Source: Thermococcus gammatolerans EJ3
GTDB taxonomy: Archaea; Methanobacteriota_B; Thermococci; Thermococcales; Thermococcaceae
Assembly (NCBI RefSeq): GCF_000022365.1
Contig: NC_012804.1
Coordinates: 1,240,001-1,304,000 of the forward strand
Reading direction: 5' to 3'
Length of the DNA stretch: 64,000 bases
Shown here one piece after another: positions 13,245 through 15,146 of the stretch. Each line of letters starts with the position of its first letter. Position 1 is the stretch's first letter. The notes under the pieces are model-generated. The model was not told the origin of the DNA. It made no database searches and was given only the letters and a program-made list of their open reading frames with translations. Both the position numbers and the translations under genes were made by a program.

Positions 13245-13706
13245 ATGCGTGTGCTCTGGGAGAGGGAAATCCCTGCCAAGGACATCGTGGTCTCACCTCG
13301 ACCTGTGTGGAAGTGCAGAGCCTGCCCGATGTACGGCAAAAGGCCGGGCTGTCCTCCCCATGCCCCCGACTGGAGGGAAGCCAGAGATTGGGTCAGGTCA
13401 TTCAGACGCGCCCTACTCGTGAAGTTCGAGATCAACATGGACGACTTCGAGAACGAGAAAAGAAAGGCAATCCTCTGGCTTCTTGACAGGGAGAGGGAGC
13501 TCTTCCGGCAGGGAAAGCTCTACGCAATGGCCCTCTTCCCCGGAAGCTGCAACCTCTGCGACGACTGCCCCTTTGAAAGGGGCGAACCCTGCAGGATGCC
13601 CGAGAAAGTGAGGCCGAGCTTGGACGCCATCGGTGTGGAGCTGAGCTCCCTCGTCGAGATAAAGTTCTCGGAGAGCGTCCTGTACGGCCTGATAATGGTT
13701 GAGTAG
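13245..13706 (+). CDS. DUF2284 predicted metal-binding protein
   Basis: 153 residues with a cysteine layout typical of DUF2284: CRACPMYGKRPGCPPHAP near the amino end and CNLCDDCPFERGEPCRMPE in the second half, altogether eight cysteines that may hold Fe-S clusters or zinc. The family has no firm biochemical role. First gene of a run of three (with the CARF-like and PIN-like genes); 8 bases separate it from the next. TATA-like GTTAAAAAG at 13216-13224 implies a nearly leaderless mRNA. Confidence 0.8.
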   Translation: MRVLWEREIPAKDIVVSPRPVWKCRACPMYGKRPGCPPHAPDWREARDWVRSFRRALLVKFEINMDDFENEKRKAILWLLDRERELFRQGKLYAMALFPGSCNLCDDCPFERGEPCRMPEKVRPSLDAIGVELSSLVEIKFSESVLYGLIMVE

Positions 13707-13714
13707 GTGGTGTT

Positions 13715-14179
13715 ATGACCGTCCATGTAGCCCTGCTCGGAAGGACGCCCTGGGCCCTCGTGAACACTTACTACGCCTCTGTGATGAGGGGATCCCGGCC
13801 GAGGGCCGTTTACGTGGTGACGGAGCGGAGGTACTCCCGATCCCTCCCGAAGATCGTCGAGGCCCTGAGGGAGATCTCAAGGGCTTACGGCTTCGAACCG
13901 GCGATAGAGACGAGGGTCATCGATGACGACGACTTTCAGATGGCGGATAGGGTCTTCCGCGAGCTTTTCTCGGAGATAGATGGCGAAGACGTGATTCTGA
14001 ACATGACTTCCGGAAGGAAGGCCCTCGTGGCGGCCGCGATAGTCCAGAGCAGGAACTGCAACCTGAGGGAGATCCTCTACATGGCACTGCTCGACGTGGC
14101 CTTTCCAAACAGGCCCTACATGATGCTGCCCATCCACATGCAGAGGCTCAAAAACTTCCTCGGTGATGGCAATGATTGA
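13715..14179 (+). CDS. CARF-like nucleotide-sensor protein (stand-alone)
   Basis: 154 residues, a single Rossmann-like domain. The first strand and loop VHVALLGRTPWALVNTYYA, the second strand AVYVVTERR, and late motif DVILNMTSGRKALVAAAI correspond to the conserved parts of CARF domains (strand 1 with G-x-T/S-P; and N-x-T-x-G-x-K near strand 4), which bind cyclic oligoadenylates in type III CRISPR effectors. No effector domain follows in this chain; it overlaps the PIN-like gene by 14 bases, so the two are probably translationally coupled and work together. The CARF call is by motif only; it could be another Rossmann sensor. Confidence 0.6.
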   Translation: MTVHVALLGRTPWALVNTYYASVMRGSRPRAVYVVTERRYSRSLPKIVEALREISRAYGFEPAIETRVIDDDDFQMADRVFRELFSEIDGEDVILNMTSGRKALVAAAIVQSRNCNLREILYMALLDVAFPNRPYMMLPIHMQRLKNFLGDGND

Positions 14180-15146
14180 GGTCGTGATAGAGAAGCCCGA
14201 GCTCCAGATACTGATAAACCTCCTCCAAAGGAGCGGAATCACCGTGAGCTACCCCCTCTATGAGATACCCCTCTTCTCGGCCAGGGAAAGCGAGAGGGGC
14301 TACACCCTCAGCGTTCTCGCGGGGAGGCATGACTTCAAAGGCAGGCACCCCGAACTTCCCTCCTACTCTGACTTCTACGAGACCTTTATCTCGTCCGGCA
14401 TAATAACCTACGACAACATAGACGAGTTCGCCAACATGCTCGAGGTGTACCGGGTTCTGCGGAAGGGCGTCTCCTTCGCCCCCGACACGAACCTCTTCTA
14501 CCACCGCTTTATCTCCTCCTACCGGCCGCTCGACGGTTATCAGATCGTCGTCGCCGAGGACGTTAAGAACGAGATCGAGGCGGCGATGAACTACAAGTAC
14601 AGGCGCCAGCTCCTCGTGGAGATCTCACGTGAGGTGAAGAACGGCCACCTGCTCCATGAGCTCTCCAACAGGAGAACCAAAAAGGCCAGAAAAGCTGCCT
14701 ACATAGCCCTCAAGGAGTTTGAGGCCCTTAGGGACAGGATAATAATAGCCGAAAGGTACGGAAGCGGCCACAACAACGACGAAGTGATAGTGAAAACCCT
14801 CAAGCACTTCGACGAGATGAGTCCTTCTCTGCTCGTTTTCCTGACGGCTGACCTGGCAATAACTGACGTGGCCAGGATGGAGGGCCTCGAGTACTTCCTC
14901 TTCGAGTACCCCACGAAAGAGCTTGGAACACACGAGGTGTCAGCCTACCAGCTGAGAACATTAATCTTTAACCTCGCGGCCGTTTTCGGCGTTATTGATC
15001 TCAACGGGACAATAATCTACGGTGAGTTTGGAGGAAAAAGAAAGCTCAACGAACTTAAGCTCCTGTTCCGGGACGAGGACCTGTTCCAGAAATTCCTGTT
15101 CCACCTGAACCTCTGCAGGCGTCTTGAGACCATAATGAGGGGATAA
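14166..15146 (+). CDS. PIN-domain nuclease-like protein, partner of the CARF-like protein
   Basis: 326 residues. An amino-terminal region of about 100 residues with no recognised fold is followed by a PIN-like core with acidic residues in the right order: Asp107 in FAPDTNLF, Glu136/Glu138 in VKNEIEA, Asp205 in GHNNDEVIVKTL, and Asp229 in FLTADLAITDVA. About 85 residues follow (…VIDLNGTIIYGEFGG…). PIN domains are Mg-dependent ribonucleases. ATG 14166 or 14172 are both possible. The 14-base overlap with the CARF-like gene suggests a sensor/effector pair. A toxin or RNA-processing role without CRISPR is an alternative. Confidence 0.65.
   Translation: MAMIEVVIEKPELQILINLLQRSGITVSYPLYEIPLFSARESERGYTLSVLAGRHDFKGRHPELPSYSDFYETFISSGIITYDNIDEFANMLEVYRVLRKGVSFAPDTNLFYHRFISSYRPLDGYQIVVAEDVKNEIEAAMNYKYRRQLLVEISREVKNGHLLHELSNRRTKKARKAAYIALKEFEALRDRIIIAERYGSGHNNDEVIVKTLKHFDEMSPSLLVFLTADLAITDVARMEGLEYFLFEYPTKELGTHEVSAYQLRTLIFNLAAVFGVIDLNGTIIYGEFGGKRKLNELKLLFRDEDLFQKFLFHLNLCRRLETIMRG

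Follow-up and report, generated by a model that had tools for sequence, protein, structure and literature searches.

CARF domains are known above all as receptors for the cyclic oligoadenylates made by Cas10. What, then, does a CARF protein answer to in an archaeon with no detectable Cas10? The question is raised by a 64,000-nucleotide stretch of the genome of Thermococcus gammatolerans EJ3 (contig NC_012804.1, positions 1,240,001 to 1,304,000 of the forward strand; hereafter the window), a genome held in a single contig of 2,045,438 bases. Here a gene for a CARF sensor protein (gene A) overlaps a gene for a predicted PIN-domain nuclease (gene B). We propose, with a probability of roughly 0.68, that the two encode a ligand-gated RNase of two subunits, which would serve in defence or stress and take its trigger from a source other than Cas10. 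The proposal draws on the domains themselves, on active-site residues that are conserved, on the strict pairing of the genes and the purifying selection on them, on independence of Cas10, and also on the restriction or defence genes found near many relatives and on natural one-chain fusions of the same families. The pair is laid out as follows.

13715..14179, + strand: gene A, CARF sensor protein, 154 aa (profile and predicted fold)
14172..15146, + strand: gene B, predicted PIN-domain nuclease, 324 aa (profile, predicted fold and conserved residues)
14172..14179, + strand: overlap of genes A and B, 8 bases (open reading frame coordinates)

Genes A and B are two overlapping open reading frames in different frames and not one chain. 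For gene B, we prefer the start at ATG 14172 to that at ATG 14166, because the family alignment begins there and a GGTGAT precedes it. The alternatives, ATG 14166 and GTG 14163, would lengthen the overlap to 14 and 17 bases, respectively. The initial annotation of this locus gave an overlap of 14 bases, which holds for ATG 14166 and shrinks to 8 bases with the preferred start. Its placing of sensor and effector in separate chains is borne out by the profiles, the predicted folds, the two overlapping reading frames and the co-occurrence of the genes. Purifying selection seems to act on both genes, since the pairwise ratio of nonsynonymous to synonymous substitution rates (dN/dS) is 0.04-0.39 (six comparisons, in several of which dS exceeds 1 and is near saturation).

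By curated profile and predicted fold, gene A belongs to the CARF superfamily, as had been read from its motifs. The PADLOC model CARF_m1--CARF (PDLC01971) matches residues 1-153 of 154 with an E value of 3.4e-73; the Pfam and NCBIfam CARF models gave weak matches below cut-off. The AlphaFold2 model was made from a 14-row alignment (A2), from which L006, with a CARF gene cut by a contig end, was left out. It consists of five strands alternating with helices, with a mean predicted local distance difference test score (pLDDT) of 73.8 and values below 50 for residues 125-154. When this model was compared with known structures by VIA, the top 34 rows were CARF proteins by title, among them Card1, Can1, Can2, Csm6, Csa3, ring nucleases, SiRe_0806 and others, family labels that we have partly assumed. 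The best row was Card1 (6xl1; Z 13.3, 122 aligned residues, root mean square deviation 2.7), and the first unrelated row, at Z 8.9, was tied with row 34. Foldseek gave a weaker result, its single match at E <= 0.001 being Csm6, and a PDB sequence search placed ring nucleases on top (SSO2081 best), the rest being mostly chance matches. Profile searches detected no DNA-binding domain in the gene A protein. L-G-R-T-P follows strand 1, and N-M-T-S-G-R-K occupies residues 96-102. The two motifs are located below; here and for gene B, conservation was counted over 72 two-gene rows of 88 loci, 16 having been dropped because they lacked both genes or were duplicate or fragmentary.

13736..13756, + strand: CARF motif 1, L8-G-R-T-P-W-A14 (close relatives have LGR[ST]xWA, the CRISPR-linked fusion VGTSPEA)
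14006..14020, + strand: CARF motif T98-S-G-R-K102 (G100, R101 and K102 in 72/72 rows, T98 in 71/72)

Gene B is, by predicted fold and conserved acidic residues, a PIN nuclease for which RNase activity is predicted. It comprises a head (residues ~1-95), a PIN domain (~97-250) and a tail (~253-323). Pfam PIN_4 matches it at E = 0.0017, just under the curated cut-off, and PADLOC CARF_PIN (PDLC01973) at 1.1e-16 over residues 65-292. Its predicted structure (mean pLDDT 90.3) finds SiRe_0806 of Sulfolobus islandicus as the best match both by Foldseek (1.5e-7) and by VIA (9jxx; Z 16.2, with 241 residues of model 1-321 aligned to chain 152-418). The VIA rows that follow are mostly PIN-domain proteins, which cover model residues ~91-253 with Z up to 12.4. 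The acidic residues listed in the initial annotation as D107, E136, D205 and D229 are real, and become D105, E134, D203 and D227 when counted from ATG 14172. We take these four, which also occur in four haloarchaeal homologues, to be the PIN active-site positions.

14484..14492, + strand: PIN motif D105-T-N107 (72/72 rows)
14571..14579, + strand: PIN motif E134-I-E136 (E134 in 72/72 rows, E136 in 71/72)
14775..14780, + strand: PIN motif N202-D203 (D203 in 72/72 rows, N202 in 71/72)
14841..14867, + strand: PIN motif L224-T-A-D227 with D232 (D227 in 72/72 rows, D232 in 71/72)

The likeness to SiRe_0806 extends to both genes. This protein has been solved in its apo form (PDB 9jxw) and, according to the title of entry 9jxx, in complex with cyclic tetraadenylate (cA4). 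Its CARF front half resembles gene A (Z 10.7), and the rest of the chain resembles gene B including the head. Because that alignment spans residues 1-321, the head, PIN domain and tail of gene B are together the counterpart of the rear half of a CARF-PIN protein made as one chain, and the head is, contrary to what had been supposed, not of an unfamiliar kind. SiRe_0806 differs in being one chain, and identity amounts to 16-19% over aligned residues. Its sequence likeness is weak (gene A profile to 9jxw, E = 0.17; gene B profile, no match). A sequence search of the PDB that started from gene B or its alignment yielded no useful match, SiRe_0806 surfacing by fold comparison only, and our literature search found no paper on this protein.

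PADLOC CARF_PIN (PDLC01973) matches gene A at profile positions 1-146 and gene B at 226-443, whereas the CARF_m1 models PDLC01971 and PDLC01972 are named for CARF alone. A PIN gene adjoins every A gene scanned (that of the window, one of Archaeoglobi and four haloarchaeal ones); what the catalogue lists as a stand-alone CARF is therefore, in the scanned cases, one member of a unit of two genes.

How constant is the pairing? A class-wide search of 115 genomes matched CARF in 86 and PIN in 81. With fused CARF-PIN proteins separated out before counting, both genes occur in 79 of the 94 Thermococcaceae genomes and are adjacent in 79/79, so the co-occurrence in other genomes on which the initial annotation depended is observed. 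One genome has CARF only and one PIN only; in both cases the gene is a fragment at the end of a contig. Of the better Thermococcaceae genomes (>=90% complete, <=5% contaminated) outside the genus labelled g3, 65/66 carry the pair. None of the 9 genomes of g3, which by inference is Pyrococcus-like, has it, and neither does G055. Disruption of the pair is rare. In G097, the PIN gene is interrupted by an insertion whose reading frames look transposase-like by eye; the five other two-gene-locus matches flagged with stops inside all proved, when the loci were read, to end at natural stops. As to a mobile or viral origin, no relative was present in the viral contigs searched.

The distribution of type III CRISPR is matched by the fused form but not by the two-gene pair. 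The Cas10 palm domain (PF22335) was matched in 28 of the 79 carriers and not in the other 51, and the comparison with type III CRISPR suggested in the initial annotation shows no link for the two-gene form (p=0.25). The count of 28 may be slightly too high, two of the matches (G045 and G083) lying in short reading frames of 137 and 147 aa. Searching with two more Cas10 models brought in no other carrier above cut-off. TIGR02578 (Csm1) also gave matches of 18-26 bits in most genomes, including this one, which were rejected as Cas10 (cut-off 170 bits); they come from a ~200-aa reading frame aligned at model positions ~4-77, presumably a separate HD-like protein. The T. gammatolerans genome has no Cas10 match above the cut-off of any model, and thus no detected Cas10 source for cyclic oligoadenylate, and it has neither a Cas1 nor a Csx1-HEPN match. 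The earlier statement that the window contains no CRISPR locus agrees with a 20-mer scan, which found no CRISPR-like array in it.

The one-chain CARF-PIN fusion of Thermococcaceae has the same two domains and the same order of PIN motifs as the pair, but it differs in its company, in its motif 1 (VGTS versus LGR[ST]xW) and in forming a separate clade. It occurs in 18 genomes, of which 18/18 have Cas10 (Fisher p=1e-9), and on 17/17 usable contigs a Cas10 gene or fragment is no more than 16 kb away (16 by PF22335; G028 by TIGR02578, with a csm1 fragment 9.9 kb away). The same 20-mer scan, applied to loci that differ in length from ~4 to 20 kb, detected arrays at 14/18 fused loci and at 3/20 Thermococcaceae two-gene 20-kb loci, and at 0/14 shorter two-gene loci (L001-L014), 0/11 Archaeoglobi two-gene loci and 0/12 plasmid loci. 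Fused and two-gene forms are found together in 12 genomes. One fused copy (G052; L059 9645-10571) has lost most of its PIN domain in frame, while CARF, head and tail remain.

A tree of 89 rows, made by a quick method with the haloarchaeal rows and G052 left out, separates three groups with the fewest possible changes: the Thermococcaceae two-gene form (60), the Archaeoglobi two-gene form (11) and the CRISPR-linked form (18). Each lies on one side of a branch, with SH-aLRT values of 87, 90 and 100, respectively. The groups also differ in the first CARF motif. In fusions it is VGTS-like, G9 and T10 being invariant in 10/10 rows. The LGR[ST]xW version is found in the 14 A2 rows and in 8 of 10 Archaeoglobi CARF starts, R10 being present in fewer than 97% of the 72 two-gene rows, and the four haloarchaeal proteins examined are different again. 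The GRK motif, on the other hand, is kept in all alignments except for one GRR in a fusion (G109). The difference in motif 1 would fit a changed ligand, though it does not prove one.

The relatives outside Thermococcaceae place the pair in other surroundings. We searched 59 genomes of Archaeoglobi, the class of the Archaeoglobus metagenome-assembled genome, and matched gene B in 18, with 11 full-length loci and seven partial or weak matches. In all 11, CARF is upstream of PIN, touching or within ~0.7 kb. The two genes touch in eight loci, and in three (L109, L110 and L111) they are separated by two small genes. In 6/11 loci the first gene upstream is that for McrC (touching in four, at 0.3 and 1.0 kb in two), with PF10117 E values from 1.6e-74 to 2.4e-62 and McrB-like AAA genes before it. 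Six of the 11 carriers have no Cas10 match, the completeness of those genomes not being given. Read by eye, the small intervening genes encode an antitoxin of AbrB type and a toxin of VapC type (L109 2972-3634, L110 10406-11067, L111 8759-9449). A HAD-type hydrolase gene stands <=~0.7 kb downstream of the PIN gene in 10/11 loci (L105-L114; contiguous in nine; e.g. L105 10944-11651) and may be part of the Archaeoglobi operon.

In haloarchaea, relatives are plasmid-borne. A haloarchaeal gene B matches 12 of 72,556 plasmid records, its CARF partner matches the same 12, and in 12/12 the PIN match follows directly after the CARF gene. The four haloarchaeal CARF proteins scanned match PADLOC CARF_m1--CARF (PDLC01972) at 5.6e-55 to 4e-66, and hhalign of haloarchaeal against Thermococcus profiles gives probabilities of 97.7 for gene B and 98.3 for gene A. 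In Haladaptatus, gene B looks broken. We viewed the surroundings of all 12 copies (5 or 7 kb per side, less at record ends). Annotations of BREX, DISARM, UvrD or PD-(D/E)XK lie near 9/12. Genes for a UvrD-type helicase and/or a PD-(D/E)XK nuclease occur in 6, BREX is annotated in 2 and DrmE in 1. VWA plus HEAT genes occur in 4, and ADP-ribosylglycohydrolase genes in 4. The incomplete gene table of the 12 stretches contains no Cas10, Csm or Cmr annotation. Upstream of the CARF-PIN genes and in the same orientation, L122, L123 and L126 share VWA, HEAT-repeat and ADP-ribosylglycohydrolase genes (with others between in L126), and L118 has the VWA and HEAT-repeat genes of this upstream set, which may be an undescribed defence cluster. 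With the pair in 79/94 Thermococcaceae genomes, 11/59 Archaeoglobi genomes and 12 plasmid records, the arrangement is, contrary to what had first been thought, not uncommon.

The McrBC neighbourhood does not extend to the window. McrC was matched in 37/94 Thermococcaceae genomes, and the pair in this genome is not linked to mcrBC, as the position of its match shows.

G000:C1:444444-445373: sole McrC match of this genome, ~808 kb from the pair

The neighbour directly upstream of gene A is of a different kind.

13245..13706, + strand: DUF2284 predicted metal-binding protein, 153 aa (PF10050, E=2e-32), directly upstream of gene A

Because the stop of this gene lies only 8 bases ahead of the gene A start, DUF2284, gene A and gene B may share one transcript. 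A DUF2284 gene is found upstream of the CARF gene, on the same strand and within 1.5 kb, in 77/80 CARF-bearing Thermococcaceae genomes; in the remaining 3/80, it is on another contig or was not found. It is also retained in all nine g3 genomes, which lack the pair, and for this reason DUF2284 as a functional partner is a lead only. Five DUF2284 loci without the pair (four of g3 and that of G055) held no pair remnant better than E=0.13. In 23/77 genomes, a gap of ~470 bases (467-479) separates DUF2284 from the CARF gene. In part of Thermococcus, this gap holds a gene for a ~150-aa hydrophobic protein (eight loci read; e.g. L018 1031-1495), and the one example scanned had no Pfam match. As it is absent from the window, the gap gene was ruled out as part of the unit.

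By comparison with published systems, the parts are of known kinds. CARF-PIN fusions and CARF-nuclease proteins outside CRISPR have been in print since 2013-2014 (PMC3710099, PMC4012209), and PIN is among the effectors listed for cyclic oligoadenylates (PMC12669027), as far as the portions of these articles drawn on here go. RtcR likewise uses a CARF domain outside CRISPR, to bind tRNA halves ending in a 2',3'-cyclic phosphate, but is a transcription activator with AAA+ and HTH (helix-turn-helix) domains, and no nuclease domain is named for it in the sections consulted (PMC7790460). In CoCoNuT, CARF genes are tied to McrBC-type loci, as in part of Archaeoglobi, and cyclic-ended RNA has been proposed as the CARF signal; in the sections consulted its CARFs are, however, RtcR-like or Can-like, and the main text of that article does not contain the terms "PIN domain", "Archaeoglob" or "Thermococc" (PMC11090510). 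Our literature search, which did not cover the Makarova 2020 CARF classification, found no paper on the two-gene pair, its core status or a McrBC link. As far as our searches reach, what is new is that the two-chain form is a near-core unit independent of Cas10, and that it has relatives on plasmids and next to McrBC.

How might such a unit work? Solved CARF proteins dimerise. The gene A protein, as a presumed dimer, would bind a nucleotide-type signal and, once occupied, would act via the head of gene B to release metal-dependent RNA cutting by the PIN domain. Cleavage of cellular and invader RNA would then slow growth or bring about dormancy; CRISPR immunity employs sensors and RNA-cutting partners of this kind as an emergency brake. 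The pair would be related to one-chain CARF-PIN effectors, SiRe_0806 among them, but made of two chains and independent of CRISPR. Since no Cas10 is detectable in this genome, the trigger would come from another source, either RNA ends left by damage or infection or another nucleotide cyclase. Complex formation, ligand gating, RNase activity and a role in defence or stress are what we infer from the evidence above.

Several observations weigh against this proposal. No defence gene was noticed among the close neighbours of the pair in the window, and the pair is near-universal in the family outside one genus, mostly behind DUF2284; both facts would also fit a housekeeping role. The gene A model is only moderately confident. 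Arrays do lie 2.4 to ~10 kb away at three of the 20 Thermococcaceae 20-kb two-gene loci, one two-gene pair (G057) is 15 kb from Cas10, and the CRISPR-associated protein Csa3 is annotated beside one plasmid copy. Moreover, a two-gene layout is not in itself a sign of freedom from CRISPR, because L117 (8544-10062; G153) is a two-gene member of the CRISPR-linked clade, with Cas10 on the same contig and neighbours read by eye as cas4-cas2-cas1 and csm3. L117, a long branch in that group of the tree, shows that splitting or fusion occurred inside the CRISPR-linked clade too.

The alternative that survives best, though we regard it as unlikely, is housekeeping RNA processing or decay, in which the PIN protein would mature or degrade RNA, in normal growth or under stress, and the CARF protein would respond not to infection but to RNA ends or a metabolite. 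Near-core presence (65/66 good non-g3 genomes) and the fixed DUF2284 neighbour are what such a role would predict, the RNA-processing PIN proteins Nmd4, Rrp44, Utp24 and SMG6 are among the structural matches of gene B, and the CARF domain of RtcR offers a precedent for sensing tRNA halves with a cyclic phosphate (PMC7790460, in the part cited above). Absence from the 9 g3 genomes and G055, however, means that the pair is not essential in the family. Distribution in Archaeoglobi is patchy, and restriction or defence genes stand near many Archaeoglobi and haloarchaeal plasmid copies, which also weighs against this reading.

We consider it improbable that the pair behaves like a toxin-antitoxin system, with the CARF protein restraining a PIN toxin by binding and without a small ligand. 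The genes are small, overlapping or touching and always adjacent, and VapBC-type PIN toxins do match gene B structurally. The CARF motifs are nevertheless conserved, profile searches gave the CARF protein no DNA-binding domain, and the solved homologue SiRe_0806 binds cA4 (by the title of 9jxx). Typical toxin-antitoxin pairs turn over, unlike this pair, which is stably present across the family.

More improbable still is an ordinary type III CRISPR accessory that awaits cyclic oligoadenylate made by Cas10. Membership in the same family as the CRISPR-linked CARF-PIN fusions and a Cas10 match in 28/79 carriers are compatible with it. On the other side stand the 51/79 carriers and this genome, which have no Cas10 match (nor, here, Cas1), the 6/11 Archaeoglobi carriers likewise without one (genome completeness not given), and the coexistence in 12 genomes of fused and two-gene forms that differ in motif 1.

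That gene A is a free-standing ring nuclease destroying a signal, with gene B a mere neighbour, we hold to be very improbable: 3/12 haloarchaeal homologues are annotated "CRISPR-associated ring nuclease" and SSO2081 is the best PDB sequence match, but natural fusions, the one-chain structural match and strict pairing tie the two genes together, and one CARF can act as sensor and ring nuclease at once.

The ligand-gated RNase triggered by something other than Cas10 is therefore the reading that we retain. Tentatively, and at somewhat less than even odds, it may be widened to a CRISPR-independent nucleotide alarm in archaea, in which a two-gene CARF-PIN RNase, near-core in Thermococcaceae and found elsewhere beside McrBC or other defence genes, would answer a Cas10-free signal (from another cyclase or from broken RNA ends) with a retuned motif 1.

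The pair is more general than the initial annotation supposed. Proteins catalogued as CARF alone are suggested to be half of a two-gene enzyme, and CARF-PIN effectors are linked to McrBC and other non-CRISPR defences. In Thermococcaceae, a near-universal CARF-linked predicted RNase, most of whose carriers have no Cas10 match, raises the question of which other signal archaeal CARF domains read.

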